Part shown: piece by piece, positions 7,940 through 23,819 of the stretch
Numbering within the stretch: position 1 is the first letter of the stretch
Layout: every line of letters begins with the position of its first letter
Origin: Streptomyces kaniharaensis
GTDB lineage: Bacteria; Actinomycetota; Actinomycetes; Streptomycetales; Streptomycetaceae
Assembly: GCF_009569385.1 (NCBI RefSeq)
Contig: NZ_WBOF01000001.1
Span: 5,309,501 to 5,373,500 of the forward strand
Direction: 5' to 3'
DNA: 64,000 nucleotides
The notes under the pieces: model-generated
The model's database searches: none
What the model was told of the DNA's origin: nothing
Seen by the model: only the letters and a program-made list of their open reading frames with translations
Translations under genes and position numbers: made by a program

Positions 7940-7944
7940 CCGCC

Positions 7945-9183
7945 ATGCCGGAGACGATCATCCTGCCGTCGGCCCCCGTCCAGGTGGCCGAGCTCGACCT
8001 GGAGCGGCCGACCGCACTGCTCCGGCCCGGGGGAGACGAGGTACTCCTCCGCAGTGGCCGGGTGCTGGCGCTGATCCGCCGGCAGGGCCGCCCGCTCGGC
8101 CTGGTCACGGCCGAGGCCGTACCGGGTGATCCGGACGGACTGTGCCGGGCCCTGGTCGCCGAGGCCTACCGCCGACTCGACCTGGCCGACCGGGACACCG
8201 TGCCACCGCGGCCACCGGCCGACCCCCCGCTCGTCAGCGTCGTCGTCTGCACGCACAACCGGGTGGATCTGCTGCCGCGGGCCCTGGACGCCCTGCTGGG
8301 CACCGCGTATCCGCGCATCGAGGTGATCGTGGTCGACAGCGCACCCGCGAACCAGGCCACGGACCTGCTGGTCCGGCTGCACTACCACGGCCGCGTCCGG
8401 TACGTGCGCGAGCCGGTGCCGGGCCTGGCCCGGGCCCGCAACCGCGGACTGGCCGCGGCGCGCGGCGAGATCTGCGCCTTCGCCGACGACGATCTCATCC
8501 TCGACGCGGGCTGGGTGCCCGCCCTCGTCGACGGTTTCCGGTCCGACGACCGAGTGGGCTGCGTGACCGGGCTGGTCCTGCCGGCCGAGCTGGACACCGA
8601 GGCGCAGATCGCGCTGGAGCGCTACGCCGGATACTCCAAGGGCTTCACCGCCCGCAGCTGGTCGCTGCGCGACCGGTCCGACGACCCGCTCTTCCCCTTC
8701 GCGACCGGCCGACTCGGCACCGGTGCCAACATGGCCTTCCGCACCGACGTGCTCCGCGCGATCGGCGGCTTCGACCCGGCGACGAGCACGGGCACCCCCG
8801 CGATGGGCGGGGAGGACCTGCTGTCCTTCCTCCAGGTGCTGGCCGCGGGGCACAAGGTGGCGTACCGGCCGGACGCGCTGGTCTGGCACCCCCACCGCCG
8901 CGGCATGGACTCCCTGACGACCCAGGTCTTCGGCTTCGGGGTCGGGTTCGGCGCCTACCTGACGGCTGCCGTGGCCCGCCAGCCGCGGCTGCTGGCCTCC
9001 CTCGTCCCCCGGGTGCCGCGCGGCATCTGGCAGACCCTGCACCGCGGCGATTCGGTCGTCGGCCCCCGCGACCCGCTGATGGCACACCTCAGGCGGCGGG
9101 AACTGCTCGGCCTGCTGTACGGTCCGATCTGCTACGTCCGCAGCGCTCGGCTGCAAACCCGGGCCAGGGCGGCGAGGCCGTGA
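7945..9183 (+). CDS. Family 2 glycosyltransferase, tandem paralogue B
   Basis: A 412-residue paralogue of the preceding gene, co-linear from end to end: N-terminal VQVAELDLERP...RVLALIRRQGRPLGLVT module (12-56), GT-A domain from about 96, DDD at 181-183, GANMAFRTDVLR, GGEDLLSF and FGFGVGFGAYLTA. It lacks about 20 N-terminal residues of paralogue A. The ribosome-binding GGAGG sits in the last codons of the upstream gene, 9 nt before the ATG, so translation is probably coupled. The pair could add two related sugars in sequence or form a heteromeric polymerase. The acceptor-side residues differ between the two copies, which argues against simple dosage duplication. Confidence 0.87.
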   Translation: MPETIILPSAPVQVAELDLERPTALLRPGGDEVLLRSGRVLALIRRQGRPLGLVTAEAVPGDPDGLCRALVAEAYRRLDLADRDTVPPRPPADPPLVSVVVCTHNRVDLLPRALDALLGTAYPRIEVIVVDSAPANQATDLLVRLHYHGRVRYVREPVPGLARARNRGLAAARGEICAFADDDLILDAGWVPALVDGFRSDDRVGCVTGLVLPAELDTEAQIALERYAGYSKGFTARSWSLRDRSDDPLFPFATGRLGTGANMAFRTDVLRAIGGFDPATSTGTPAMGGEDLLSFLQVLAAGHKVAYRPDALVWHPHRRGMDSLTTQVFGFGVGFGAYLTAAVARQPRLLASLVPRVPRGIWQTLHRGDSVVGPRDPLMAHLRRRELLGLLYGPICYVRSARLQTRARAARP

Positions 9184-10577
9184 TGTCCCTCCTCAAGTAC
9201 GCCCGCCCCAAGTCGCGTCCGACGGCCCCGCGGCCGTGCTCCTGCCCGCTGGCGCTGCCCTGCGAGTGCTCCTACACCACGCTGCTGAAGGCCCGGCTCA
9301 GGTCGGCCTCCCGGTGGTCGAGCGGAGAACCGCTCCTGCGCAACGGCCATCTGCTGGCGGCGAGTTCGGTGATCGCGGCGGGGCTGGGATCGGTCTTCTG
9401 GATCCTCGCCACCCGCTACTACAGCGCCGAGACCGTCGGGCGCAGCTACGCCGCGCTGTCCGCGGCCATGTTCCTGTCCACGCTCGGCAGCCTCAACCTC
9501 GGCGACGCCCTCGTACGGTTCGTCCCGGCCGCCGGGCAGCACACCCGGCGCCTGGTGCTCCGCTGCTACGCGATCAGCGTCGGATGCAGCGCCCTGGTCG
9601 CCGGCGCCTTCCTGCTGCTGATCCCACTGGTCGCCCACGACCTGGAATTCCTGCGTGGGCCGGTGCTCGCGGTCTCCTTCATCGCCGCCACCGCGGGCTA
9701 CTCGGTCTTCGTCCTCCAGGACGGGGCACTCACCGGCACGCGCCGCATCGGATGGGTGGTCGGCGAGAACACCGTCTTCGCGGTGGCGAAGGCCGGGCTG
9801 CTGGCCGGCTGCGCCGCCCTGGCGATGAGCACCGGAATCCTCGTGTCCTGGGCCGCGGCGATGGTCATCTCGATCGTGCTGGCCAACGTGGTGCTGTTCC
9901 GCCGGGCGGTGCCGGGCCACCAGGCCGAGACGCCCGCCCGCGAGCGGCCGCCGGACAAGGTGATGCGCTGGGCCACCGCGGACTACGTGGGCAACCTGTT
10001 CAGCTTCGCCACCTACACCGTGGTGCCACTGCTGGTGCTGGACGAGGTCGGCGCGCGGGTGAACGCCTACTACTCGCTGGCCTTCGTCATCGCCTCCACC
10101 CTGTACGTCGCGGTGTTCAGCATGGGCCACTCGCTGGTGGTCGAGGGCGCCAGGGATCCCCGGCGGCTCGCCGAGCACGCCCGGAGGATGCTGCGCCACT
10201 CCGCCTTGCTGATGGTCGCGGCGGCCCTGCTGGTGGTGGCCCTGGCGCCCTGGATCCTCGGCCTCTTCGGGCCCGAGTACGCCGCGCACGGCACCACCGT
10301 GATGCGACTGATGGCGCTCTCCGCCATCCCGAACGTCGTCCCGAACGTGGTCATCCAGATGGCCCGCGTGCGGCGGTCGATGCCGTGGATGATCGGCGTG
10401 CGGCTGGTCTTCTCCGTCGTGATCATTGCACTGGTGGCACTGCTACTGCCGCGGTACGGCCTGGCCGGAGTCGGCTGGGCCTGGCTGATCGCCGAATGCG
10501 CGGTGGCGCTGCCGCTGCTGTTCGTCCTCAGGCGCTGGCTGCGTTCCCTGGAACGGAGTGATTCCCATGACCGCTGA
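9183..10577 (+). CDS. MOP-superfamily polysaccharide flippase (Wzx-like)
   Basis: A 464-residue polytopic membrane protein with about 12 hydrophobic segments from residue 55 on, typical of Wzx/PST oligosaccharide-lipid flippases: an opening LLAASSVIAAGLGSVFWILATRYY helix, the FVLQDGALTG loop, and a second half starting near VMRWATADYVGNLF. It would move a lipid-linked repeat unit across the cytoplasmic membrane. The first 50 residues are unusual: basic, with two CxC pairs (C19/C21 and C27/C29). Start ATG overlaps the upstream stop (TGATG). Its presence between glycosyltransferases supports a Wzx-dependent type of export. Confidence 0.88.
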   Translation: MSLLKYARPKSRPTAPRPCSCPLALPCECSYTTLLKARLRSASRWSSGEPLLRNGHLLAASSVIAAGLGSVFWILATRYYSAETVGRSYAALSAAMFLSTLGSLNLGDALVRFVPAAGQHTRRLVLRCYAISVGCSALVAGAFLLLIPLVAHDLEFLRGPVLAVSFIAATAGYSVFVLQDGALTGTRRIGWVVGENTVFAVAKAGLLAGCAALAMSTGILVSWAAAMVISIVLANVVLFRRAVPGHQAETPARERPPDKVMRWATADYVGNLFSFATYTVVPLLVLDEVGARVNAYYSLAFVIASTLYVAVFSMGHSLVVEGARDPRRLAEHARRMLRHSALLMVAAALLVVALAPWILGLFGPEYAAHGTTVMRLMALSAIPNVVPNVVIQMARVRRSMPWMIGVRLVFSVVIIALVALLLPRYGLAGVGWAWLIAECAVALPLLFVLRRWLRSLERSDSHDR

Positions 10578-11595
10578 CCCGACCGCTGACCCGACCGTCG
10601 ACCGGACCGTCGGCCCGACCGCCCCGAGCCTGTCCGTCGCGATCTGCGCCTACACCGTCGACCGGTGGGACGACCTGTGCGCCGCCGTCGCGTCGGTGCG
10701 CACGCAGACCCACCCGCCCGCCGAACTGGTGCTGGTCATCGACCACTGCACGGAGCTGCTCCGGCTCGCCCGGGAGAGGTTCTCCGGCGTACGGATCGTC
10801 GCCAACGGCCAGCAGAGGGGACTCTCCGGCGCCCGCAACACCGCCCTGGCCGTGGCGCACGGCGACCTGATCGCCTTCCTGGACGACGACGCGGTGGCCG
10901 ACCCGGACTGGACGGCCCGCCTGCTGGCCGGATTCCGGACCCCCGGGGTACTCGGCGTCGGCGGCCTGGTCCGGCCGTGGTGGCGGACCGGCCGGCCCGG
11001 CTGGTTCCCGCCCGAGTTCGACTGGGTGGTCGGCTGCTCGTACCAGGGGCTGCCGGAGCGCGGCGCCGCGGTACGGAACTTCATCGGGGCCAACATGTCG
11101 TTCCGGCGGGCCCCGGTGCTGGCCGTCGGCGGCTTCCGGACCGATCTCGGCCGGGTCGGCAGGCGTCCGCTCGGCTGCGAGGAGACCGAACTCTGCATCC
11201 GGCTCGCCGCCCGGAACCCCGGCGCCGTACTGCACTACGAGCCGGCCGCGGCGGTCGACCACCGCGTGCCGGGACACCGCGCCACGCTCTCCTACTTCGC
11301 CGCGCGATGCTTCGCCGAGGGCCGCTCCAAGTCCGCGGTGGTCCGGCACGGCGGCGCCGCCGCGGGCCTCGCCAGCGAACGCGGCTACCTGCGGCACACC
11401 CTGCCGGCCGCGCTGCTGCGCTGCCTGCGCAGCGGTCAGGCGTCCATGGCGGCCGCCCTGTGCGCCGGCGTGGGGCTGACCGTCGCCGGATACCTCACGG
11501 GCCTCGCCGGCCAGTGGGCGGGATACCGACAGGCCCGTGGATCCGCGCTCACCCCGACCGCTTCCGTCGGGCAGTCGATCAGAGGCCGATCATGA
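10567..11595 (+). CDS. Family 2 glycosyltransferase
   Basis: A 342-residue protein. A short TADPTADPT-type repeat at the N-terminus precedes a GT-A domain (LSVAICAYTVDRWDDL, LVLVIDHC, GLSGARNTALAVAHGD, DDD at 106-108, IGANMSFRR, GCEETELCIR). The C-terminal 90 residues carry one or two hydrophobic stretches (LCAGVGLTVAGYLTGLAG) that could anchor it to the membrane. ATG 10567 is chosen over GTG 10558 because GGAG at 10555-10558 gives an 8-nt spacer. It overlaps the flippase gene by 11 bp and the deacetylase by 4 bp, so it belongs to the same operon. Confidence 0.86.
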   Translation: MTADPTADPTVDRTVGPTAPSLSVAICAYTVDRWDDLCAAVASVRTQTHPPAELVLVIDHCTELLRLARERFSGVRIVANGQQRGLSGARNTALAVAHGDLIAFLDDDAVADPDWTARLLAGFRTPGVLGVGGLVRPWWRTGRPGWFPPEFDWVVGCSYQGLPERGAAVRNFIGANMSFRRAPVLAVGGFRTDLGRVGRRPLGCEETELCIRLAARNPGAVLHYEPAAAVDHRVPGHRATLSYFAARCFAEGRSKSAVVRHGGAAAGLASERGYLRHTLPAALLRCLRSGQASMAAALCAGVGLTVAGYLTGLAGQWAGYRQARGSALTPTASVGQSIRGRS

Positions 11596-12404
11596 CTCCC
11601 GTACCCGTCTTCCTGTACCACTCGGTCTCGGACGATCCGCCGTCCTGGCTCGCGCCGTACACCGTCACACCGAGGACGTTCCGCGAGCAGCTGGAGCGGA
11701 TCAAGGACGCCGGCCTGTCGGTGGTGCCACTGCGCAGGCTGGTCTCGGCCGTCCGTGGCGGGCCACCGCTGCCGGCCGGAGCGGCCGTGCTGACCTTCGA
11801 CGACGGGTACGCCGACTTCTACTGGACAGTGGCGCCGATGCTCTCGGAGAGCGGCCTGCCGGCCACCCTTTACCTCACCGTCGGCGCGATCCACCCGCCA
11901 GGCGCTCAGGGCGCGGGCAGCCTGCTCCCGCCGGCGCCGATGCTGAACTGGCGCCAGGTCAACAACCTGGACGCGCTGGGCGTCGAGCTCGGCGGCCACT
12001 CCCAGACGCACGTCCCGATGGACACGGTCCACGGCCGGCGGCTGACCGAGGAGGTCGTCGGATGCAAGAAGGCGCTGGAGGACGCCCTCGGCCACGAGGT
12101 CACCTCCTTCTCCTACCCGCACGGGTACTCCAGCCCGGCGGTGCGCCGGAGGGTCATGCAGGCCGGCTGGACCTCCGCCACCTCCGTCGGGAACGCGTTC
12201 AGCTCCGCGGCCGACGACCCGATGCGGATATCCCGGCTGATGGTCCGCAGCGACACGCCACCGCAGGTGTTCGACGACTGGACCAAGGGACGCGGTGCCC
12301 CGGTGGCGCCCTTCCGCGAACGCGCCGCCACCCGGGCCTGGCGCACCTACCGCCGCCTGCGCGCGGCGGTGGGCCACCCGGTCGGCGGACCGCCGAAGTG
12401 CTGA
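11592..12404 (+). CDS. Polysaccharide deacetylase (NodB domain)
   Basis: A 270-residue protein with VPVFLYHSVSDDP at the start, the first NodB motif TFDDGYADF (general base and metal Asp), second motif GGHSQTH (metal His pair) and SYPHGYSS for the third. Enzymes of this kind remove N- or O-acetyl groups from hexosamine polymers. There is no signal peptide, which points to action on cytoplasmic lipid-linked intermediates or to non-classical export. ATGA overlap with the preceding glycosyltransferase. The operon's product therefore probably contains acetylated amino sugars, an inference from this gene alone. Confidence 0.87.
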   Translation: MTPVPVFLYHSVSDDPPSWLAPYTVTPRTFREQLERIKDAGLSVVPLRRLVSAVRGGPPLPAGAAVLTFDDGYADFYWTVAPMLSESGLPATLYLTVGAIHPPGAQGAGSLLPPAPMLNWRQVNNLDALGVELGGHSQTHVPMDTVHGRRLTEEVVGCKKALEDALGHEVTSFSYPHGYSSPAVRRRVMQAGWTSATSVGNAFSSAADDPMRISRLMVRSDTPPQVFDDWTKGRGAPVAPFRERAATRAWRTYRRLRAAVGHPVGGPPKC

Positions 12405-12431
12405 TCTGACCAGCGTGCAGGAGTGACCACA

Positions 12432-14309
12432 GTGTCAGGAGTGACGACCACAGTGACGGAATCCCTGGAGCGCGAGGCCGCCCGGCCCGCCGACCGTACG
12501 TCCACCGAGGGGCGCCCGACGGCCGGCCGGTCCGTGTGGGTGGTCCGGGGGGCCCTGCCGGTGGCGCTGGCACTCTGGCTGCTCGCACTGCCCCGCGTGC
12601 AGCTCTCCAGGATGGACGACCTCGGCCTGCTCCAAGCGCTGCCGCCGCTCTACTTCGCCGCCCTCGCCGTTCTCACCTGCGGATTCGTCGTCGCGGTGCG
12701 TGACCCGCGGACCCGCCAGGGCTGGCTCGCCGCCTACGTCCTGGGCCTGATCACGCTGATCCACGCCACGCCCAGCATCCTCTACCCGACCCTCCGCTAC
12801 GCCTGGGCCTGGAAGCACATCGCCATCGTCGACGCCATGCTGCGCCACCACGGGACGGTGCAGGGCGCGGGCAAGCTCGACGTCTACAACCAGTGGCCCG
12901 GCTTCTTCGAGCTCAACGGGCTGTTCCTGCGCGTGACCGGCCTGCCCTCCGCGCTCGGCTACGCGTCCTGGTACCCGGTGATCGCCAACGTCCTGCTGAT
13001 GGGCCCGCTGCTGCTGCTCTACCGCAGCCTCACCAAGGACCGCCGACTGATCTGGGCCGGGATCTGGCTCTACTACTCGGCGGCCTGGGTCGGCCAGGAC
13101 TACTTCTCACCGCAGGCCTTCGCGTACCTCCTGTTCGTCACCGTGATCGCGCTGGTGATGCGCCAGCTGGCAGCCCTGCGGGAACTCGCGGAGGACGGAC
13201 CGGGGGCGTCCGGGGCGCGAGCCGTGTCCTCGGCCGGCGAGATGTCGCGCCGCGGCGGCTGGCGACCCGTGCCGTTCGTGCTGCTGCTGGTGCTGATCGC
13301 CGCGATCGTCTCCTCCCACCAGCTGACCCCGATCATGCTGATCGCCTGCCTGGCGATGCTGTCACTGCCGCGGCGCAACCGCCGTACCGTCCTGCCGCTG
13401 CTGGCCGCGGCGGTCGCACTGACCTTCCTGTGGGATGCCACCGTCGCCCGGCCGTTCATGTCGGAGCACGTGGGCAGCCTGGTCACGGCGCTCACCTCCC
13501 CGGACCACAACGCGGTGGCCGGCTTCGCCGAGCTGTCCAACGCCGCCCCCGGGCAGGTGCTGGCGTCCTGGGTCGACCGCGCGATGACGGCCTCCGTGTT
13601 CCTGCTGGCGGTGGCGGGCGCCGTCCGCCACCGCTGGGTGCGCCGGACGAGCCTGCCGCTGCTCCTGGTGGCGCCGCTGGTGCTGCTGCCCGCCAACGCC
13701 TACGAGGGCGAGATGCTCTTCCGGGCGTACCTGCTCGCCCTTCCGGCCGCCGCCTTCCTCGCCGCGACCCTGCTGTTGGGGACGCGACCGGTCGGCCTGC
13801 TGCGGACCGGCGTCATGAGCGCCGTACTGCTCGCTCTGGTCGGTGGCTTTCTCTTCGGCTATTTCAGCAAGGAGAAGATGAACTACTTCCCGCCGGGGGA
13901 GGTGGCGGCGGTCCGCTACGTGACCAACACCCCGCCGGGATCCATGATCGTCTCGCTGACCTCGAACGAACCGGGCGGTGAGCTGAACTACGACAGCCAC
14001 GACCGCTTCGTCCTGGCCGGCACGTCCGTCCCGGACCGGGAGCGGCTGGTGGCAGACCCTGAGCACGTCCTGCAGGGAGTGCTGCAGCGCCGGGACGTGG
14101 CCGGACCCACCTACCTGATCCTGTCCAGGGCACAGGCCGCGGACTGCGAGCTGACGGGGCTTCTGCCGCAATCCACCGTCGAGCAGGTGGAGGCGGCGGC
14201 CGCGAGGGCCTCCGACCTGCGCGTCGTGCTGAAGAACTCCGACGCGGTGGTCTACCAGTACGTCGCCCAGGCACCTGACCAGGTCGTCGGCGGAGGGAGC
14301 GCACGATGA
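12432..14309 (+). CDS. Large polytopic membrane protein, possible GT-C type
   Basis: A 625-residue protein with roughly ten hydrophobic segments (first at about residue 35, TLIHATPSILYPTLRYAW loop near 115, others to about 480) and a hydrophilic C-terminal domain of some 150 residues. The layout, with a long first loop containing LDVYNQWPGFFELNG, resembles GT-C glycosyltransferases or polysaccharide polymerases, but I see no motif that proves it. GTG 12432 is preferred because AGGAG at 12419-12423 gives an 8-nt spacer; other in-frame GTGs are at 12423, 12441 and 12453. Position between deacetylase and GH16 hydrolase fits a polymerase or acceptor-transfer role. Confidence 0.72.
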   Translation: MSGVTTTVTESLEREAARPADRTSTEGRPTAGRSVWVVRGALPVALALWLLALPRVQLSRMDDLGLLQALPPLYFAALAVLTCGFVVAVRDPRTRQGWLAAYVLGLITLIHATPSILYPTLRYAWAWKHIAIVDAMLRHHGTVQGAGKLDVYNQWPGFFELNGLFLRVTGLPSALGYASWYPVIANVLLMGPLLLLYRSLTKDRRLIWAGIWLYYSAAWVGQDYFSPQAFAYLLFVTVIALVMRQLAALRELAEDGPGASGARAVSSAGEMSRRGGWRPVPFVLLLVLIAAIVSSHQLTPIMLIACLAMLSLPRRNRRTVLPLLAAAVALTFLWDATVARPFMSEHVGSLVTALTSPDHNAVAGFAELSNAAPGQVLASWVDRAMTASVFLLAVAGAVRHRWVRRTSLPLLLVAPLVLLPANAYEGEMLFRAYLLALPAAAFLAATLLLGTRPVGLLRTGVMSAVLLALVGGFLFGYFSKEKMNYFPPGEVAAVRYVTNTPPGSMIVSLTSNEPGGELNYDSHDRFVLAGTSVPDRERLVADPEHVLQGVLQRRDVAGPTYLILSRAQAADCELTGLLPQSTVEQVEAAAARASDLRVVLKNSDAVVYQYVAQAPDQVVGGGSAR

Positions 14310-15565
14310 GCACCCGTTCGTGGACCGTGCCGCGGGCTCTTCCGGCGCTCTGGGCCTGGATCGCCCTGCTGGCCACCTTGCTCCCCGCCGGGAACCCGCT
14401 GCGCGTGGCCGTGGCCGGAACGTTCCTGCTGACCTGCCCGGGTGCGGCGGCCGTGGGGTGGGGCCGTACCGTCCCGTCGTGGTTCGCCCGCCGGCCCGAC
14501 CGACTGGTCACCGCCGTCCTGGCCGTGACCCTGAGCGCCGCGATGACGGCGCTGACGGCCGAGGCGCTGTTCTTCGCGCACGCCTTCTCCACCACCCGCG
14601 CGGTGCTCGTCCTCGCCGTGGTCACCACGGTGCTGGTGCTGCTCCCGCGCCCCTCGGGGCCCGCGCGCGAGCCCGGGGCACCCCGCCGCCGCAGGAACTG
14701 GCGGACCTGGCTGGGATCCGGCCTGCTGCTCGCCGCCGCCGCCTGCGGCACCACCGCCGGCCACACCGCGTCCGCACCGTCGGGCTCAGGGGCCGCGGCC
14801 ACGATCTCTCCAGGCTCGGAGTCGCTGGAGAAGCCTCCGGGCCCCGGGCCCTGGCACCTCGTCTTCAAGGACGACTTCAACGGCTCGTCCCTGGACCGGT
14901 CCAAATGGGCGACCTGCTACGACTGGAACGACGGCGGCTGCACCAACGCGGGCAACAACGAGCTCGAGTGGTACCAGCCGGGCCAGATCCAGGTGGCGAA
15001 CGGCGTGCTCACACTCACCGCCGAACGCCGGCCGACGCCCGGCGCCGACGGCAAGACCTACCCGTGGCGCTCCGGGATGATCTCCACCGGCCGCGACCAC
15101 TGGGACGACCCCCCGCGCCACACCTTCACGTACGGCTACTTCGTCGCGGCGCTGAAGGCCCCGATGGACCCGGTGGGCATGTTCCCGGCCTTCTGGCTGC
15201 TCCCCGCGGACACCCGGGGCGGACTGCCGGAGCTGGACGTCGCCGAGTTCATCAACACCAGGCAGTACGCCGACCTGAACCTGCACAACCGGACGCCGGA
15301 CGGCAAGCCCGTCGACGTCCACGGCTGGGGCGGCCCGACGGACTTCGCCGCGGACTACCACGTCTTCGCGATGGACTGGCAGCCGCAGGCCGTCACCTGG
15401 TACGTCGACGGCGTGCCGAAGCTCCAGGTGACCGACCCGGCCGAGATCCCGCACACCGCGATGGAACTGCTCCTCAACCTCGCGGTGGGCTACCAGCAGA
15501 CACCGCCACCCGACGTCAACTCCGCCCAGCTGCGGGTCGACTGGGTCGCGGTCTGGCAGCACTGA
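14306..15565 (+). CDS. Membrane-anchored GH16 glycoside hydrolase
   Basis: A 419-residue fusion. Residues 1-120 hold three or four hydrophobic helices, followed by a basic patch (RRRRNW) and another hydrophobic stretch ending in AAAACGTT, which looks like a lipobox. From about 175 there is a GH16 jelly roll (WHLVFKDDFNGSSLD opening, E309-L-D-V-A-E314 carrying nucleophile and acid/base, final LRVDWVAVWQH). GH16 enzymes cut or transfer beta-1,3/1,4-glucans, galactans and related polymers. The enzyme would sit on the outer face of the membrane, where it could trim or transglycosylate the polymer made by this operon. ATGA overlap with the upstream gene. Confidence 0.88.
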   Translation: MSTRSWTVPRALPALWAWIALLATLLPAGNPLRVAVAGTFLLTCPGAAAVGWGRTVPSWFARRPDRLVTAVLAVTLSAAMTALTAEALFFAHAFSTTRAVLVLAVVTTVLVLLPRPSGPAREPGAPRRRRNWRTWLGSGLLLAAAACGTTAGHTASAPSGSGAAATISPGSESLEKPPGPGPWHLVFKDDFNGSSLDRSKWATCYDWNDGGCTNAGNNELEWYQPGQIQVANGVLTLTAERRPTPGADGKTYPWRSGMISTGRDHWDDPPRHTFTYGYFVAALKAPMDPVGMFPAFWLLPADTRGGLPELDVAEFINTRQYADLNLHNRTPDGKPVDVHGWGGPTDFAADYHVFAMDWQPQAVTWYVDGVPKLQVTDPAEIPHTAMELLLNLAVGYQQTPPPDVNSAQLRVDWVAVWQH

Positions 15566-15595
15566 GCGACTTCCCAGGCAAGGACGCACGACACC

Positions 15596-16855
15596 ATGGC
15601 CATGATTCTGAACGATCTGGACCGCCGAACCCCCGTCCTGCTGGTCAAGGTGGGGCGGTACCCGCTGGCGCACGGCCCGGTGGGCGTGGTCCGGTCGTTC
15701 GGCCGGGTCGGGGTCCCGGTGTTCGCGATCGTGGAGGACCCGCTGACGCCGACCGCGTTCTCCCGCTACCTGGCCCGCGCCTACATCCGGCCCACCACGG
15801 GCTGCGAGCGCGTCGAGCAGATGGTCGCGATCGTACGGGAGATCGGCCGGGAGATCGGCTGGCAGAACGGCCGCCGGTGCGTCGCCCTGCCCACCGACGA
15901 CGAGGCCGCCGTCCTGCTCGCCGAGCACGCCGAGGAGCTGACCCCGTACTTCCTGCTGCCGCCGATGCCCGGGGCGCTGCCCCGCCGGCTGGCCAACAAG
16001 GGCACCCTGTACGCGATGTGCGAGGAGCACGGTGTCGCGGCACCCCGCACCGTCATACCGAGCGAACCCGACGGGCTGCTGGAGGCCGCCAGGCTCTGCG
16101 GCTATCCGCTGGTGCTGAAGAACCTGGAGGCGTTCACCAGGCTGAGCCGTCCCGCGGTCAGGCACACCACCCTGATACACGACGAGCGGGAGCTGCTGAC
16201 CAGGTGCCCGCCGAGCGGTCAACTCTCCGTCCTCGCCCAGGAGTACCTGCCGGAGGAGTACTCCGAACACTGGATCACGCACCTGTGCTGCGGCCCGGAG
16301 GGCGAGCCGCTGGCCGTCTTCACCGGGCGGAAGCTGCGCTCCTACCCGCCGACCGGAGGCTTCACCACCCGGGCCGTTTCCCTGCCCAATCCCGAACTGG
16401 CCGAACTGGTCGCCGGCTTCTGCCGGAAGGTCGGCTACAGCGGCATCGCCGACCTGGACTGGCGGCTGGACCTGCGCGACGGCCGCTACAAGCTCCTCGA
16501 CTTCAATCCCCGCACCGGCGCCCAGTTCCGCCTGTTCGAAACCGTGGACGGCGTGGACGTGGTCCGTGCCCTGCACCTGTCGCTCACCGGCCGCCCGGTG
16601 CCGCAGGGGCCCCAGCTGAGCCGCTACTACGGCGTCGGGCAGCTGGACGTGGTCTCCGCCGCGGTCGCGGTCTGCCGGCAACGCCGCCCCCTGCCCGACC
16701 TGGTGCCGCGCAGGTCCACCGAGCGCGCCTGGCTCTGCCGCGACGACGTCGCGCCCGCCGCCGCCATGGTGGTCCGCTTCAGCGGCCAGGCGACCAGGTG
16801 GGTGGCCCAGAAGGCATGGAACCGGATGACTACCCGCTCCACCCCTGGAGGTTGA
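15596..16855 (+). CDS. ATP-grasp ligase
   Basis: A 419-residue cytoplasmic protein with the ATP-grasp fold: N-terminal Rossmann-like part (TPVLLVKVGRYPLAHGPVGVVRSFG), ATP-binding strand with YPLVLKNLEAF, and the metal-binding end GIADLDWRLD...YKLLDFNPRTGAQF (acidic D/D/N residues). Carboxylate-amine ligases of this type join an amino acid or acyl phosphate to an amine. In this setting it could attach an amino acid to an amino sugar of the polymer; that is inference. It lies 30 nt behind the GH16 gene and 3 nt before an FAD oxidoreductase, so these two probably act together. Confidence 0.85.
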   Translation: MAMILNDLDRRTPVLLVKVGRYPLAHGPVGVVRSFGRVGVPVFAIVEDPLTPTAFSRYLARAYIRPTTGCERVEQMVAIVREIGREIGWQNGRRCVALPTDDEAAVLLAEHAEELTPYFLLPPMPGALPRRLANKGTLYAMCEEHGVAAPRTVIPSEPDGLLEAARLCGYPLVLKNLEAFTRLSRPAVRHTTLIHDERELLTRCPPSGQLSVLAQEYLPEEYSEHWITHLCCGPEGEPLAVFTGRKLRSYPPTGGFTTRAVSLPNPELAELVAGFCRKVGYSGIADLDWRLDLRDGRYKLLDFNPRTGAQFRLFETVDGVDVVRALHLSLTGRPVPQGPQLSRYYGVGQLDVVSAAVAVCRQRRPLPDLVPRRSTERAWLCRDDVAPAAAMVVRFSGQATRWVAQKAWNRMTTRSTPGG

Positions 16856-16858
16856 GAC

Positions 16859-18121
16859 ATGACTGCGTCCACTGAGGTACCCGTCGCGATCGTGGGTGCC
16901 GGTCCGTACGGACTGTCCGTGGCGGCCCACCTGAGGGCAGCCGACGTGCCCGTGCGTATCCTCGGTCAGCCGATGGGAAGTTGGCGGGCGCGGATGCCGG
17001 CGGGAATGTTCCTCAAGTCCACACCCCGGGCGTCCTCGATCTCGGATCCCGCCGGCCGCCACGGCCTCAACGACTTCCGGGCCACCGAGGGCCTGCCCTG
17101 GGTGGGCGACCGCTACGCGATTCCGCTCGACGAGTTCATCCGCTACGGCGAGTGGTTCCAGCGGCGGTGCGTGCCCGAGGTCGAGCGCGCTGCCGTGGTC
17201 CGGATCGAACCGAACTCGCACGGCTTCCGGCTCCGGCTGGACACCGGCGAGCGGTTCACCGCTCGCGCCGTCGTCGTGGCCAGCGGCTTTCCGCCGTACG
17301 CGACCATCCCCGCCGAACTGCGGCCGCTTCTGGAGGCAGGACTGGTCTCGCACACCTCGGACCACGCGGACCTGGCGACGTTCGCCGGACGGCGGGTGGC
17401 GGTGATCGGTGCCGGGCAGTCCGCGCTGGAGAGCGCCACCCTGATGCACGAGGCGGACGCCGACGTGATCCTGATCGCGAGGACGGACCGCCTGATCTTC
17501 GGAACCCCGCCCACGACCGACTGGGACCGTGACCGCCCGTGGCCCGTCCGGCTGGCGAAGCCGGCCACGCCGCTCGGGCCCGGATGGTCGTTCGCCGCGT
17601 TCAGTAACGCGACCGGGGCCTTCCGCCACCTGCCGGACCGGACCAGGGCCCGTCTCGTGCGCACCGTGCTCGGCCCGTCGGGCGGATGGTGGCTGCGCGA
17701 GCGCATGGAGGACCGGTTCCCGGTGCTCACCGGTCACGAGGCGGTCTCCGCCGTGGAGGCCGACGGCCGGGTCCGGCTCCGGCTGCGCGGACCGACCGGC
17801 GCCCTGGAGGTCGATCACGTGCTCGCCGCCACCGGGTACCGGGTGGACATCGACCGGCTGGACATCCTGGACGCCGGCCTGCGCCGGTCGGTCGCCCGGC
17901 GGAACGCCGGCGCACCCCGTCTGACCAGCGGATTCGAGTCCTCCGTGCCCGGTCTCTACTTCACCGGGCTGTCCGCCGCCGACACCTTCGGACCGCTGAT
18001 GCGCTTCGTCTGCGGCACGGGGTTCGCGGCCCGGCGGATCAGCCGGTCGATCGCCTCGGCGCAGCGGCGCTCGCCCTCCGCACGACCGGCTCCTGTGCCT
18101 CATATCACAACCAGTCGGTGA
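16859..18121 (+). CDS. FAD/NAD(P)-dependent oxidoreductase
   Basis: A 420-residue flavoprotein with two Rossmann signatures: AIVGAGPYGLSVAAHL for FAD near the start and AVIGAGQSALESATL for NAD(P)H near residue 183, and ATGYRVDIDRL in the C-terminal part. The arrangement matches class B flavin monooxygenases and the SidA/IucD N-hydroxylase superfamily. The FxGxxxHxxxW/Y fingerprint of Baeyer-Villiger enzymes is not visible. It directly follows the ATP-grasp gene (3 nt, GGAGG in that gene's last codons), suggesting joint modification of an amino-acyl or amino-sugar substituent. Last gene before a hairpin at 18171. Confidence 0.83.
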   Translation: MTASTEVPVAIVGAGPYGLSVAAHLRAADVPVRILGQPMGSWRARMPAGMFLKSTPRASSISDPAGRHGLNDFRATEGLPWVGDRYAIPLDEFIRYGEWFQRRCVPEVERAAVVRIEPNSHGFRLRLDTGERFTARAVVVASGFPPYATIPAELRPLLEAGLVSHTSDHADLATFAGRRVAVIGAGQSALESATLMHEADADVILIARTDRLIFGTPPTTDWDRDRPWPVRLAKPATPLGPGWSFAAFSNATGAFRHLPDRTRARLVRTVLGPSGGWWLRERMEDRFPVLTGHEAVSAVEADGRVRLRLRGPTGALEVDHVLAATGYRVDIDRLDILDAGLRRSVARRNAGAPRLTSGFESSVPGLYFTGLSAADTFGPLMRFVCGTGFAARRISRSIASAQRRSPSARPAPVPHITTSR

Positions 18122-18170
18122 CGGCGCCTCCAACCCTGCTCCTGCCAGGCGTTTTCAGCGGGAACATGAT

Positions 18171-18198
18171 CGATGCCGCGGCTCAGGCCGCGGCATCG
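18171..18198. terminator. GC-rich hairpin behind the polysaccharide operon
   Basis: CGATGCCGCGGC pairs with GCCGCGGCATCG around a TCAG loop: a perfect 12-bp stem without a T tail, as is common in high-GC actinobacteria. It stands between the FAD oxidoreductase and the secreted GH16 gene and may end or attenuate transcription of the operon. Confidence 0.6.
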
Positions 18199-18274
18199 GG
18201 CTTGCATACGGACCATCCCTTCGTTCAGGCTGCTCCGGGTCCAGCAGTGGGGGGAACGAAAGGTCTCCCTCCGT

Positions 18275-19666
18275 ATGCCCAAGCATTCGAAACACCGCCG
18301 CAGCACCTTCAGCACGCGCCACCGCTTCGCCGCGGTCGGCCTCGCACTCGCCGCCGTCGGGACGGGCGCGGCCGCCTGGGCCGTACCGGCCAGCGCCGGC
18401 CAGACCGAGCCGGTCGTCGTCGACTCGCTCACGATCACGCCGACCGCTCCCGGTGCCGACGCTCCGGTCACGGCCACCGCGACGCTGCACGCCACCAGCC
18501 AGGTGTCGGCGTCGGCGCTGACCATCGCGGTCCGCTCGGCCGGCGGTACCCACTACGACTTCCCCGGCGCGATCGCGACCACGCTGACCTCGCAGGAGAG
18601 CACCTTCACCTCGGGGAGCCGGACCTTCCCGGCAGGCGACTACACGTACTTCGTGGCGTACAAGGGCACCGACCACCACTGGCACAACCTGAAGCCGGTC
18701 AACACCTTCACCGCGGCTGCCGGTTCGGCGACGACGGCCAGCCCGTCCGCCTCGCCGGCGGCCACGGCCACCGCGTCTCCCACGCAGACGCCGACGGCCA
18801 CGGCTTCGCCGACGGCGACCGCCTCGCCCACGCAGACGGCCACCGCCACCCCGTCGCCGACGGCCACCGCCTCGCCGACCGCGACGGCCACCGCTTCGCC
18901 GACCGCGATCTCGCCGACCGCCACCGCTTCGCCGACGGCCACGGCCACGGCCACCGCCTCGCCCACCCAGACGGCCGCTTCCACCGGGGGCCCCACCGGC
19001 ATCCCGGGCACCTGGCGGCAGGTCTTCGCGGACGAGTTCAACGGCAGCTCGCTCGACTCGACCAAGTGGAACCCCAACTGGTTCGGCTGCGACACCTGCA
19101 CCACCCCGCCGGTTAACACCGCCGAGTCCGCCGCGTACGCCCCGTCGCAGGTCTCGGTGAGCGGCGGCAGCCTGCACCTGACGGCCGAGCAGAAGCCGGC
19201 CACGGTGAACGGCAAGACCTACCCGTACACCTCGGGCCTGATCAACAGCAACGGCAAGGCGTCGTTCACCTACGGTGCCTTCGAGGCCCGGATGTACCTT
19301 CCGGCCTCCGGCTCGCAGGTCGCCAACTGGCCCGCGTTCTGGACGGACGGTCAGAGCTGGCCGACCGATGGTGAGCTGGACGTCATGGAGGGCCTCGGCG
19401 GCCAGGCCTGCTACCACTTCCACTCCCCGTCCGGCGGCCCCGGCGGCTGCGCCTCCGGCAACTTCAGCGGCTGGCACACCTTCGGTGCCGACTGGGAGCC
19501 CGGCTCGGTCACCTACTACTACGACGGTGTGAAGGTCGGTCAGATCACCACCGGCATCACCTCCTCGCCGATGTACCTGATCCTCAACAACGCGGTCGAC
19601 TCCAACAACCCGGCCGTCGCCCCGGCCGACGCGCAGGTCGACTACGTGCGGGTCTGGCAGCACTGA
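18275..19666 (+). CDS. Secreted GH16 glycoside hydrolase with Ser/Thr/Pro linker
   Basis: A 463-residue exported enzyme. A Sec-type signal (basic KHSKHRRSTFSTRHR, hydrophobic FAAVGLALAAVGTGAAAWA, AxA cleavage) is followed by a small Ig/cohesin-like domain (about 45-150), a highly repetitive TASPTAT linker of about 90 residues, and a GH16 domain from about 245 (WRQVFADEFNGSSLD; E367-L-D-V-M-E372; DYVRVWQH end). It should attack a beta-glucan or related polymer outside the cell. ATG 18275 is chosen since it directly precedes the signal peptide. The catalytic domain resembles the neighbouring GH16 lipoprotein at 24.8 kb more than the membrane fusion at 14.3 kb. Confidence 0.9.
   Translation: MPKHSKHRRSTFSTRHRFAAVGLALAAVGTGAAAWAVPASAGQTEPVVVDSLTITPTAPGADAPVTATATLHATSQVSASALTIAVRSAGGTHYDFPGAIATTLTSQESTFTSGSRTFPAGDYTYFVAYKGTDHHWHNLKPVNTFTAAAGSATTASPSASPAATATASPTQTPTATASPTATASPTQTATATPSPTATASPTATATASPTAISPTATASPTATATATASPTQTAASTGGPTGIPGTWRQVFADEFNGSSLDSTKWNPNWFGCDTCTTPPVNTAESAAYAPSQVSVSGGSLHLTAEQKPATVNGKTYPYTSGLINSNGKASFTYGAFEARMYLPASGSQVANWPAFWTDGQSWPTDGELDVMEGLGGQACYHFHSPSGGPGGCASGNFSGWHTFGADWEPGSVTYYYDGVKVGQITTGITSSPMYLILNNAVDSNNPAVAPADAQVDYVRVWQH
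18745..18985 (+). repeat. Coding tandem repeat (TASPTAT linker)
   Basis: Imperfect 18- to 24-bp units (ACGGCCACCGCYTCGCCSACS) encode the Ser/Thr/Pro linker between the N-terminal module and the GH16 domain of the secreted hydrolase. It is a protein linker, likely to vary in copy number between strains. Confidence 0.8.
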
Positions 19667-19734: not shown

Positions 19735-20742
19735 TCACGGCCAGCCCGCCGCCTCCTCCAGCACCGGCACCACCACCGACAGCAGCCAGCCGCGGTTCCT
19801 CGCGAACTGCCGTGACTTCTCCAGGTTGGCCGCCACGTGCCAGAGCCAGGTCAGCAGCACGATGTCCGCCGGCTGCTCGGCGCCGACCTCGTCGACCACG
19901 AGCGATCCGGTGCGCAGGGCGCCCACGACCTGCCGGCCCCAGGGCCGGCGGTCGAGCAGCCAGCGCAGTGCGAGGGCGAAGGTGCAGACGTCGACCTCCG
20001 AGGGCCCGTCAGGGGAGGCGCCGGCCCAGTCGACCAGCCCGGTGACCCGGCCGCCGTCCCGGGACAGCAGGACGTTGTTGGCCGCGAAGTCCCCGTGGAT
20101 CCACGCCACCAGCATCGGGCGGTGCGCCAGGCGTTCGCGCAGTCGCCGCTCCACCGCGGCCAGCCCGGCCGCACCGGGATCGTGCCGGCACCAGCGGACC
20201 TGACGGGTGATGACGTCCAGCCGAGGTCCGATCCAGTCGTCGATCCGGTCGCCCGCGTTCTCCATCCGTCCGGTGGCCCGGTGCAGTGTCCGGATGGCGG
20301 CGAGGGAGAGCCCGGCGACCCTGGTGGCGTTCTGGGGGTACCGGCTCAGCAGTGCGTCGGCGGGCGCGCCCGGGAGCCAGCCCTGGAGGAGGACCGGCAG
20401 CGGTGCGTCGAGCCGGGAGTCGACGGACTCGGGGACCAGGCTGCGCCAGCCGCGCAGCCGTTCGTCCCGGGCCAGCTCCAGCAGGACGTCCCGCTCCTGG
20501 GTGAGGGAGGCCAGCGCACGGGGGTTCCTCGGGTGCTTGACGGCCAGGGGGCGGCCGGCCTCGCCGTCCCAGCGCAGCACCAGCACGTCGGAGTAGCCCG
20601 GTGACGGCCGTTGGAGTGCCGGTGGGTCGTGCGGGCACAGCTGGCGGGCGAGCCGTCGCGCTGTCAGCGCGTCGAGAGGTCCGGCCAGCGGCCGGTGAAG
20701 GGACGCGATCGGGCCGGGGAGCGCGATGATCCGCTCGCTCAT
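19735..20742 (-). CDS. APH-fold phosphotransferase
   Basis: A 335-residue protein with the aminoglycoside-phosphotransferase/choline-kinase fold: VLRWDGEAGRPLAVKHPRNP for the ATP lysine, HGDFAANNVLL as catalytic loop (Asp and Asn present) and GLVDWAGAS as the metal-binding DFG equivalent. Such kinases phosphorylate small molecules (choline, sugars, antibiotics) or amino acids; the substrate here is unknown. Its ATG overlaps the stop of the upstream PRTase/HAD fusion gene (ATGA), so the two proteins are made together and likely share a pathway. Because it sits with a large biosynthetic-looking fusion rather than alone, antibiotic resistance is the less likely role. Confidence 0.85.
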   Translation of the reverse strand: MSERIIALPGPIASLHRPLAGPLDALTARRLARQLCPHDPPALQRPSPGYSDVLVLRWDGEAGRPLAVKHPRNPRALASLTQERDVLLELARDERLRGWRSLVPESVDSRLDAPLPVLLQGWLPGAPADALLSRYPQNATRVAGLSLAAIRTLHRATGRMENAGDRIDDWIGPRLDVITRQVRWCRHDPGAAGLAAVERRLRERLAHRPMLVAWIHGDFAANNVLLSRDGGRVTGLVDWAGASPDGPSEVDVCTFALALRWLLDRRPWGRQVVGALRTGSLVVDEVGAEQPADIVLLTWLWHVAANLEKSRQFARNRGWLLSVVVPVLEEAAGWP

Positions 20743-23552
20743 GCGTCCACCCCGTGTCGCCCGATGCCCCTGACGCTCAGCGCCAGATCCGCGCCGGCCA
20801 GCCGGGCCAGCCGCGGCGGTATTCCCCGCGGACCGGCCTCGGGAATCGCCAGCACGGCCAGGAGTGCGCGGGTCTCCGCGGAGGTTCGGGGCGGCCGGCA
20901 GGTGGGGCAGCGCCCGGGGCGGTGGCCGATGAGCCGCGCGACGGCATCGGCGAGACCGGCCTGGTAGGCGCCTCGCGTCAGCGGTACCCCCGCCGCGCGC
21001 ACCTCGGGCGATGCGTTGGCCGGGGCCACGCCGTTCAGCGCCCACCGGAGCAGGCCGAGGTCGGCCGGTCCGTCGCCCACGGCCAGGACGGGGACGGCGC
21101 CGTCGGCGCCCAGGAGGGCGAGCAGGGCGCGCACACCGTGGACCTTGTCCGTCCCGTGCGGGACGAAGTCGGTCTGCCGCTCGCCGGGCACCACGTCGAA
21201 CCGGTCGTCGAGCGGGCTCCCGAAGCCGCCGGCCGTCCCGTCGTGGAGCAGCGCGGCGACGGTCGCGGCGGGCAGTCCCGTCCGGCGGCTGTCGTGCACC
21301 AGCGACGCGCGCACGATCCGCCGGGAGAACGGGTCGACCGTGACCTCCGGCAGGAGGGCGAGGCGGCGGCGGAGTTCGGCGTCCGGTCCTTCCCACCCGG
21401 CCGGCAGGACGGTCTCGACGGTTCCGGGCACGGACAGGTGGACGGCGGTGCCGTACTCGGCCACGCCACCGGCGAGGCCGTACGCGGCGCAGCGGTCCTG
21501 GATCTCCGGCAGGGAGCGGCCGGTGGCGAGCAGCACCCGGTAGCCGTGGGCCCGCAGCGCGCGCAGGGCGAGCATTCCCGTCGGCGACCCGGCGGGGACG
21601 TCGAGCGGATCGGTCTCCAGCACTCCGTCGACGTCCAGGACGCACCACGGCCCGCGGGGGTCGGCCTCCGTCAGGTCGGACAGGTACGTCTCGGCCAGGA
21701 ACCGCTGGACGGCGCGCGCCTGGGCACGGCGGGACCGTGCGCGGTCCCGCGAGGAGACGCGCATGTGGCCGGGCCGGGGCATCCCGAGGCCCAGGGCCTG
21801 GACGAGGCACAGCACGCACCAGCGCGCGGGCGAGACCCGTTCACCGCTCAACTCCTCGTAGCGGGAACGCAGTTCGCCCTCGGTGTCGTTGAGGCCGTCG
21901 AGGCCGTCGAGCGACACCGCGGCTCCCGCCAGATCGTACGCCGCGTCGTAGCTCGTCAGGTTCATGTTGCTGAACGCGCCCTCGGCGAAGTCGGTCTTGA
22001 CCCAGCGGCCGTCCTCGTCCGCGACCCAGTTGCGGTCGAGGGTGCGCCCGTCGACCACGCACGGCCGGCCGGACGTCAGCAGACGGTGCATCAGCGGGTC
22101 GAGCAGGACGGCCCGCAGCAGCACCTCCGGCCGTCCGAGGATCGGGGCCAGGTGCCGGGAGGCGACCTCCCACACCGGTCCCCGGCCGGTCAGCCTGAGG
22201 CTGCGGTCGGCGTCGACGGCCAGCCGTCGCTGACGGGCCGCCACGTACCGGGCGACGTCGGCCGGAGCGACCCGTTCGCCGGCCCGGTCGCGCTGCTCGC
22301 CCGGCAGCCGGGCGCGGAGCAGCACGCCGTCGGCGAAGCCGTAGACCGGCGGCACCAGTTCGCCCAGTGCGTCGGCCACGACCACCGCGCGCCGCCCGAG
22401 GAAACCGAGGCCGGCCGACTCGGCGACCATCGGCAGTGTGCGGCCGTCCACCCGCGCCGTCACCGGTACCGCGAGATGCGCACCCCGGGTCTGCGGCCCG
22501 AGCGGACCGACCTCCAGGGGCGGCCGGAAGTCGGGCAGCAGACGCGGCACCAGCTCGGCCAGCGCGGCCGGCCGCAGCAGCTCCCGTACGTGCCAGTCCG
22601 GCCCGGGCAGGACCACGCGGGGATACCGGTCGAGTCGCCGGGGCAGTACGGGCTCGTCCTCGCAGACGGCGAGCAGCAGGACGATCGAACTGGCCGGGAA
22701 GCCCGCCCGCTCGGCCGCCGCGGCGACCTGGGCCAGCGACCTGCCGGACGCCGGCGGGTCGTCCAGCAGCAGGACCAGGCCCTCGCCCCGGACCAGCCGC
22801 CGGAGTTCTGCCGCTCGGCCGGGGAGCAGCGACGCCCCGGGGCGGGCGGTGCAGACCGTCACCTGCCGGTAGCCCTGCTGCCGCAGGGCGGCCCCGGCCA
22901 GCGGGGCGAGGTAGCTCCCGGAGGTCCGGACACCCACGACCAGTAGCGGACGGTCATGGGCGGGGTGTTCCGCGGCGAACCGCCGGACCAGCTCGGCGAC
23001 GTCCTCCGGGTACTGGTCGAAGTTGCAGAAGCAGGACGGCGGGCGGACCACGGCCGGGCCGAGCACCTGCCGGACGGCCGAGGGGCGGCGCAGGGCGTCG
23101 GTCGCCCGAAGCAGCTCGCGGTGCAGGTCCGGCGGAGGTCGGTGCGTGTCGCGGGCCCCGAGCACCAGGTCCGCCAGCAGACCGGTGACCGTCTCGACCC
23201 GGGCCGTCCAGCGTTCCAGCGTGCGCGCGGGCGGCACGCGCCGGATCGCCCCGCTCGACGCCTCCAGAACGGTCCGGGCCGGCCCGGCCAGTGCCGCCGA
23301 CCGGGTGCCGGACAGGCTGTCCAGGTAGTCGACCACTCGGCGTGACGGCCGCCAGGTGCCGCTGAGACGGTCCTCGGAGGCCTGAACCGCCCCGGCCGCG
23401 AGGAGGAAGGCGTCCAGCCACCGGGATCCGTCGACGGCATCGGTCAGGCGGGCCATCAGCTCGCGGACATCGGCGTGGAGGTCGACGGCACGGAGGTCGA
23501 CGGCATGGAGGTCGGCGGCGGACCGGTCGGTGACACGTGACCCAGGACTCAA
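20739..23552 (-). CDS. PRTase / kinase-like / HAD trifunctional fusion, function unknown
   Basis: A 937-residue protein I do not recognise as a named family. Residues 20-160 are helical. About 175-300 is a phosphoribosyltransferase-type domain: LLVVGVRTSGSYLAPLAG and the PRPP-loop-like LVLLLDDPPASGRSL (264-272). About 400-560 ends in a degenerate APH-like catalytic lobe (DGRTLDRNW at 501-509, KTDF at 519-522, YDAAYDLAGA). From 636 a HAD phosphatase domain has all four motifs: LDVDGVLE, LLATGRS, K in DKVHG, and VGDGPADLG. A CPTC pair (882/885) closes it. TTG 23552 is chosen for the GGGAG 6 nt before it; ATG 23456 is the alternative. Coupled to the APH-fold gene. Confidence 0.75.
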   Translation of the reverse strand: MSPGSRVTDRSAADLHAVDLRAVDLHADVRELMARLTDAVDGSRWLDAFLLAAGAVQASEDRLSGTWRPSRRVVDYLDSLSGTRSAALAGPARTVLEASSGAIRRVPPARTLERWTARVETVTGLLADLVLGARDTHRPPPDLHRELLRATDALRRPSAVRQVLGPAVVRPPSCFCNFDQYPEDVAELVRRFAAEHPAHDRPLLVVGVRTSGSYLAPLAGAALRQQGYRQVTVCTARPGASLLPGRAAELRRLVRGEGLVLLLDDPPASGRSLAQVAAAAERAGFPASSIVLLLAVCEDEPVLPRRLDRYPRVVLPGPDWHVRELLRPAALAELVPRLLPDFRPPLEVGPLGPQTRGAHLAVPVTARVDGRTLPMVAESAGLGFLGRRAVVVADALGELVPPVYGFADGVLLRARLPGEQRDRAGERVAPADVARYVAARQRRLAVDADRSLRLTGRGPVWEVASRHLAPILGRPEVLLRAVLLDPLMHRLLTSGRPCVVDGRTLDRNWVADEDGRWVKTDFAEGAFSNMNLTSYDAAYDLAGAAVSLDGLDGLNDTEGELRSRYEELSGERVSPARWCVLCLVQALGLGMPRPGHMRVSSRDRARSRRAQARAVQRFLAETYLSDLTEADPRGPWCVLDVDGVLETDPLDVPAGSPTGMLALRALRAHGYRVLLATGRSLPEIQDRCAAYGLAGGVAEYGTAVHLSVPGTVETVLPAGWEGPDAELRRRLALLPEVTVDPFSRRIVRASLVHDSRRTGLPAATVAALLHDGTAGGFGSPLDDRFDVVPGERQTDFVPHGTDKVHGVRALLALLGADGAVPVLAVGDGPADLGLLRWALNGVAPANASPEVRAAGVPLTRGAYQAGLADAVARLIGHRPGRCPTCRPPRTSAETRALLAVLAIPEAGPRGIPPRLARLAGADLALSVRGIGRHGVDA

Positions 23553-23728
23553 GGTGATCTCCCGTGGTGAGGCTGTTCCCCCTGGAAGCCCCCCGGAAGT
23601 CCGGATCGCCCCGCGCCGCTCACTGGCGGCTCCCGTCCGGGCGCGCACCCGCCCAGGACGCCGGGATCCTCCTCTCGGCACCGGCACCCACCGCGCGGGC
23701 GTCGCCGTTTCCACCCTCCGCTCGTTGT

Positions 23729-23764
23729 GGGCATTAGTCAACGTGGGGTGGGCATCAGTCAACG
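23729..23764. promoter_or_regulatory. Two 15-bp direct repeats, 21-bp period
   Basis: GGGCATTAGTCAACG (23729-23743) and GGGCATCAGTCAACG (23750-23764) differ at one position and lie exactly 21 bp (two helical turns) apart in the divergent region between the PRTase/HAD fusion gene and the phosphoesterase gene. They look like paired binding sites on one face of the helix. Confidence 0.55.
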
Positions 23765-23819
23765 CGACGTGGCCACGCCCGATTTGCCGCCCCCACCCGG
23801 ACCGGCCAGGATTGACGGC

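Follow-up and report, generated by a model that had tools for sequence, protein, structure and literature searches.

A predicted phosphoribosyltransferase, pseudokinase-like, and HAD phosphatase fusion protein and its APH-family partner at a Streptomyces kaniharaensis exopolysaccharide locus

What is the role of a protein that joins phosphoribosyltransferase (PRTase), kinase-fold, and HAD phosphatase segments in one polypeptide beside genes for exopolysaccharide (EPS) assembly? Such a protein, of 937 residues, is encoded on a 64,000-nucleotide stretch of the Streptomyces kaniharaensis genome (contig NZ_WBOF01000001.1, positions 5,309,501 to 5,373,500), referred to here as the window. The original prediction held that the fusion belongs to a pathway that attaches a ribose phosphate to a base or carrier and then removes a phosphate, with Ter-linked nucleoside-metabolite operons as the nearest parallel. 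The observation of the fusion is confirmed and that interpretation is partly supported. An intact APH-family kinase gene is coupled to the fusion, the pair making up a module at an EPS locus (Table 1), and we propose, with a probability of roughly 40%, that the fusion is a two-step ribose-adding enzyme for exopolysaccharide that would transfer ribose phosphate from phosphoribosyl pyrophosphate (PRPP) and then dephosphorylate the product.

Domain architecture of the fusion protein

The gene extends from a TTG start at position 23552 to a TGA stop at 20739, exactly the frame first described, with GGGAGA just 5′ of the TTG (23563-23558). GC content by codon position within the frame is 0.82/0.55/0.91, the pattern of a high-GC coding gene. 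The same open frame continues for 210 bases 5′ of the TTG, where this pattern is absent and the profile flat, which makes the TTG a reasonable start. Codon-position GC, together with ten homologues, also rules out a frameshift or false open reading frame. The homologues align over nearly their full length at 45-74% identity, keep the fusion architecture, and come from the same genus and a second genus of the order, including the named records Kitasatospora sp. Root107 and Streptacidiphilus anmyonensis; one lies on a short contig that truncates its C terminus. The fusion is rare, occurring in 8/70 genomes of the genus. For the class, the same rarity was seen at lower sensitivity, because the class-wide search (at 250) scored only five candidates per genome; the order was searched at 200. 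The ratio of nonsynonymous to synonymous substitution rates (dN/dS) against the nearest relative is below 1 throughout, at 0.31 for the PRTase, 0.34 for the HAD, 0.54 for the middle segment, and 0.67 for the N-terminal part, whose helical domain is the most weakly conserved folded part, with 66% identity to homologue L032; purifying selection is thus strongest on the PRTase and the HAD. This architecture is covered by none of the library models, solved structures, or viral models compared, nor by the literature found, in line with its initial description as an unfamiliar combination, and no multi-helix membrane domain was found in the protein. Plasmid-borne spread was rejected, as the fusion was unmatched in plasmids, and so was a role as a defense system, for which PADLOC gave no match. 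In one homologue (L008, genome G068), the frame runs on upstream, in frame, into an apparent GT2 C-terminal part; this GT2-PRTase fusion is not relied on, because the contig is only 3.3 kb long and possibly chimeric, and BLAST gave no match to the window GT.

Profiles, AlphaFold2 models, and Foldseek bear out all three segments originally named. The AlphaFold2 model of the whole protein, built from 11 sequences, has a mean predicted local distance difference test score (pLDDT) of 82 and a predicted TM-score (pTM) of 0.85, the alignments behind the models being shallow at 11 to 12 sequences. For these models, the PRTase, kinase-like, and HAD folds are each supported by Foldseek. Absence of a PRTase fold, the outcome named beforehand as contrary, did not occur; the limits had to be moved from residues 175-300 to approximately 166-345, with a separate all-helical domain in front.

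By structure comparison of the model, the PRTase domain is a diverged type I PRTase. The Pribosyltran profile weakly matches four to seven of the 11 sequences (best E 1.2e-5), the window protein itself falling below the Pfam cut-off. In a profile comparison with PDB sequences, each of the 13 matches up to E 5 (best E 0.011) was to UMP synthase, PyrR, or a PRTase for orotate, uracil, or purines/pyrimidines. Foldseek comparison of a 324-residue model of the N-terminal and PRTase domains returned type I PRTases, mainly xanthine, hypoxanthine-guanine, and PyrR/PurR, for most of the top 50 matches, which are individually weak (E 0.014-0.07, TM-score by target mostly 0.4-0.5). The core fold and the PRPP and pyrophosphate (PPi) loops are common to the fusion and the type I enzymes (orotate, xanthine, hypoxanthine-guanine, PyrR); the fusion differs in having DDPP where those enzymes follow DD with two hydrophobic residues, in its long helical N-terminal domain, and in its fused kinase-fold and HAD parts. 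In the PRPP loop, V-L-L-L-D-D-P-P-A-S-G-R-S, residues D264, P266, P267, and G270 are invariant. The 13-residue PRPP motif of PROSITE PS00103 is matched in its strict form by 0/11 sequences because two prolines follow DD; a relaxed form that accepts PP at those two positions is matched by 11/11.

The middle domain (residues 346-630) had no sequence match in any search made. Its kinase fold is indicated by structure, as the full model matches choline/ethanolamine kinases in Foldseek (E 2.5e-4 to 9e-4), and the viral-model matches also include a choline/ethanolamine kinase (E 0.02). The strand pattern of the model places DGRTLDRNWVADEDGRWVKTDF at the kinase catalytic loop in a register read by eye. 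In that register, the position of the HGD Asp is occupied by R, S, or T and that of the metal-binding Asn is variable, so the domain appears pseudokinase-like, in agreement with the degenerate lobe originally described, and none of the 11 sequences has the HxD...N catalytic loop of an active kinase. D501, W509, K519, and D521 are invariant, and a near-invariant E378 falls on the strand expected, in the same register, to carry the kinase Lys. The domain thus has the modeled fold of APH/choline kinases and probably departs from them at the catalytic HGD Asp and Asn positions. Descent of the domain from the adjacent APH gene was rejected, there being no profile similarity between the two.

The HAD segment matches Hydrolase_3 above the cut-off (E 1.3e-11) and HAD-IIB structures in Foldseek (E 2e-7). 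Its motif residues are D640/D642, T677, K803, and D827/D831, with motifs I and II 37 residues apart, and all four motifs occur in 10/11 sequences. Motifs I to IV and the C2 cap, the features of HAD-IIB, are present, as they are in HAD-IIB/Cof-type sugar phosphatases (BT4131, YidA, NtdB), from which the fusion differs in having its HAD C-terminal to the PRTase and kinase-fold parts and followed by a CxxC tail. The cysteines of that tail, reported initially as a CPTC pair, are C882 and C885, conserved in 10/10 sequences with an intact C terminus.

The same domains could be read as a regulator, in which PRPP or a nucleotide would be sensed by the PRTase fold in the manner of PurR and the pseudokinase-like and HAD domains would control APH or EPS enzymes. 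PurR is indeed among the Foldseek matches, a pseudokinase-like domain is present, the second loop aspartate is lost in two homologues, and the fusion is nearly always paired with APH. The retention of HAD active-site residues in 10/11 sequences and the constraint on the PRTase, the strongest in the protein, are what enzymes would show, and we consider regulation very unlikely.

A two-gene module at exopolysaccharide loci

The start codon of the partner APH overlaps the stop codon of the fusion, and the partner, unlike the middle domain, has its kinase motifs intact. Eight relatives all retain its residues K69, H216, D218, N223, and D238, and the G of its HGD motif is substituted in loci L039 and L040. 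Whether an APH-fold gene always follows the fusion had been posed as a check: it lies directly downstream in 9/10 judgeable homologues, and L037 is without it. The APH copy in L032 apparently lacks the catalytic segment. In L039 (6904-9306) and L040 (6025-8472), the gene directly downstream of the PRTase-HAD fusion encodes a flippase-APH fusion of 801-816 residues. The PRTase-HAD fusion gene of L039 overlaps EPS genes on both sides, forming one operon, and that of L037 has a NodB gene on one side and a flippase gene on the other, all on one strand.

Other members of the genus have the same EPS locus, usually between a GGDEF-EAL gene and the counterpart of the window gene at 28988 (GTP-cyclohydrolase-II-like, by eye). 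The gene for the polytopic membrane protein, possibly a polymerase or GT-C glycosyltransferase, occurs in 32/70 genomes of the genus. It is present in 7/8 genomes with the fusion and 25/62 without it (Fisher p 0.015, uncorrected for relatedness). In six EPS loci, the fusion and the APH are both missing. A standalone PRTase relative of 293 residues, without a kinase-fold or HAD part and with the DD of its PRPP loop changed to GG, was observed between a GT2 and a flippase gene of a related EPS locus (L064, 9540-10418, minus strand; genome G261).

Proposed ribosylation chemistry and its alternatives

PRPP has recently been recognized as a ribose donor for bacterial polysaccharides, for which dual-domain enzymes pair a glycan phosphoribosyltransferase (gPRT) with a HAD phosphoribosyl-phosphatase (PRP) (PMC11127046, PMC11231755). 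The capsule polymerase of Haemophilus influenzae b likewise combines PRPP transfer and a HAD domain in one chain (PMC10299916). Because the fusion has the PRTase-plus-HAD logic of these ribosylation enzymes and stands in a polysaccharide locus, we propose that it adds ribose-5-phosphate from PRPP and then dephosphorylates the product. The proposal is suggested by a PRTase core with a conserved PPi loop and a DD-PP-x-[ST]-G loop, by the HAD-IIB sugar-phosphatase fold, and by the EPS context. In the scheme, the PRTase domain of the cytoplasmic fusion protein would bind PRPP and move ribofuranose-5-phosphate to an acceptor, either a glycan intermediate or a polyprenyl-phosphate carrier, and the HAD domain would then take off the 5′-phosphate. 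The kinase-fold domain, with no canonical catalytic motif, most likely serves in acceptor binding or as a scaffold for the other domains, and the coupled intact APH may work on the same material, perhaps phosphorylating a sugar near the flippase. The order of steps first suggested, transfer and then phosphate removal, is plausible, whereas the base named as one possible acceptor is disfavored: the EPS neighborhood points to an acceptor that is a glycan or lipid linked. The association with flippases fits a glycan as well as a polyprenyl phosphate.

The closest known parallels are the gPRT-PRP ribofuranosyltransferases of Klebsiella O4/O7 and CriT-CrpP of H. influenzae b Bcs3, which resemble the fusion in having PRTase-type and HAD domains in one polypeptide, helical regions around the PRTase core, and a polysaccharide locus. 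The differences lie in the extra kinase-fold domain, in the contiguous D264-D265 of a canonical PRPP loop (the corresponding CriT residues, D680/E818, are split over two loops), and in the HAD cap, which in CrpP (393-490) directly follows motif I rather than lying between motifs II and III (PMC10299916). Since it matches no solved member, has the contiguous DD loop, and carries a different HAD cap class, the fusion is not assigned to the gPRT-PRP family, although it may work like these enzymes.

The polyprenyl-phosphate acceptor can be cast as a special case, in which the PRTase charges the carrier with ribose-5-phosphate, the HAD yields polyprenyl-P-ribose, a flippase exports it, and the polytopic protein, as a GT-C, adds the ribose outside. 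A flippase adjoins the module or is fused within it in L033, L037, L039, and L040, and three-component ribosylation systems employ a MATE-family flippase and a GT-C (PMC11127046). Citrobacter ORF15, a polyprenyl phosphoribose synthase with a PRP domain, and mycobacterial DPPRS share the proposed two-step chemistry beside a flippase. The transferases of these synthases are, however, UbiA-type membrane proteins, and the fusion is a predicted soluble type I PRTase with no such domain. Loci without the module also have the polytopic gene and a flippase, which therefore serve the backbone too. We regard this special case as quite unlikely.

The Ter-linked setting fared less well. The Ter-type PRTase_2 (PF15609) gene of this genome is ∼3.8 Mb away; the similarity of its profile to the fusion PRTase is limited to the region of the PRPP loop (hhalign probability 4.8%), where both have the DD-x-x-x-[ST]-G type of sequence, and PRTase_2 belongs to a different family and locus. 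No Ter-type family was present among the scanned window genes, and a Ter-linked nucleoside pathway was rejected. A broader version, parallel to that predicted pathway, would have the PRTase couple a base or acid with ribose phosphate, the HAD dephosphorylate the product, and the APH phosphorylate it, giving a soluble nucleoside-like or otherwise ribosylated small metabolite. It would account for orotate and purine enzymes being the best-matching type I PRTases, for the ATP-grasp gene of the locus, and for the persistence of the module in L038 without EPS genes. The ATP-grasp gene is, however, also found in EPS loci that lack the module, the operon and fusion links lead to glycosyltransferases and flippases, and the Ter PRTase_2 gene is far away, with a likeness confined to the loop, making such a metabolite unlikely.

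Several observations weigh against ribosylation of an exopolysaccharide. Most EPS loci of the genus lack the module, and EPS therefore does not need it. L038 (G021) keeps the fusion and APH between the GGDEF-EAL and GTP-cyclohydrolase-like genes with the EPS genes absent, and it carries the substitutions D640E and D827G in the HAD and D265E in the PRTase. D265 is present in 9/11 sequences, with A or E in two homologues. In L032, which is at a contig end, and in the G102 counterpart, the module was not seen beside EPS genes. Bcs3 CriT and the T. composti enzyme, the glycan PRTases with solved structures, were absent from the profile matches, showing no sequence similarity to the PRTase, and also from the top 50 structural matches. 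The literature searched gave nothing on ribose in Kitasatospora exopolysaccharide, and ribose in the present polymer is a prediction.

Tentatively, the fusion might represent a new class of PRPP-dependent ribosyltransferase for glycans or lipid carriers that arose independently of the gPRT-PRP enzymes, with a canonical type I PRTase adapted to forming O-glycosides, an acceptor-binding kinase fold, a C2-cap HAD, and a partner APH that is sometimes flippase fused. The fold of the known PRPP-using glycan transferase is divergent; if a canonical PRTase architecture did the same work, PRPP would be in convergent use in glycan assembly, and this use would extend to actinomycete exopolysaccharides. 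The soluble three-domain enzyme and the flippase-linked kinase would be new objects of study, and the middle domain an example of an APH fold in non-kinase use.

Features and neighboring genes of the window

Table 1. Positions of the fusion gene, its domains and motifs, the partner kinase, and the EPS locus in the window
Feature	Position	Strand	Residues	Basis or remark
Fusion gene	20739..23552	−	937 aa	helical N-domain, type I PRTase, APH-fold pseudokinase-like domain, HAD-IIB phosphatase, CxxC tail
N-terminal all-helical domain	23058..23489	−	22-165	secondary structure of models
Type I PRTase domain	22518..23057	−	166-345	profile and Foldseek matches; dN/dS 0.31
Putative PPi loop GVRTSGSY	22911..22934	−	207-214	G207, R209-G212, Y214 invariant
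PRPP loop VLLLDDPPASGRS	22737..22775	−	260-272	alignment of 11 sequences
APH/choline-kinase-fold domain (predicted)	21663..22517	−	346-630	Foldseek; N-lobe and C-lobe pattern of model
Degenerate kinase catalytic loop to second metal-binding Asp (DGRTLDRNW...KTD)	21990..22052	−	501-521	register by eye from model strands
HAD-IIB phosphatase	20898..21659	−	632-885	Hydrolase_3, Foldseek; cap between motifs II and III
HAD motif I, D640-V-D642	21627..21635	−	640-642	D640 in 10/11, D642 in 11/11
CPTC pair C882/C885	20898..20909	−	882-885	conserved in 10/10 with intact C terminus
APH-family kinase	19735..20742	−	335 aa	intact K, HGDF..NN, VDW motifs; ATG overlaps fusion TGA (ATGA)
PAS-GGDEF-EAL cyclic di-GMP protein	3203..5314	+		flanks EPS locus
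EPS locus	5781..19663	+		family scans of window genes
Four GT2 glycosyltransferases	5781, 7022, 7945, 10567	+		
Polysacc_synt/MatE flippase	9183-10574	+		
NodB deacetylase	11592-12401	+		sub-cut-off similarity to PgaB
Polytopic membrane protein	12423-14306	+	628 aa	no Pfam or NCBIfam match
Transmembrane and GH16 protein	14306-15562	+		
ATP-grasp	15596-16852	+		
FAD oxidoreductase	16859-18118	+		
GH16 protein	18173-19663	+		

A third GH16 gene lies at 24836-25705, giving three GH16 proteins within 12 kb, one of them with membrane segments; the genes at 18173-19663 and 24836-25705 flank the fusion and its neighbors. A divergently oriented Phosphoesterase (PF04185) gene occupies 23727-24752 on the plus strand, and in L032, too, a relative lies ahead of the fusion. 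At the end of the window (62007-63808, plus strand), a nucleotidyltransferase-like gene is followed by a sugar/glycerol-phosphate dehydrogenase-like gene (both by eye), possibly part of another glycan locus.

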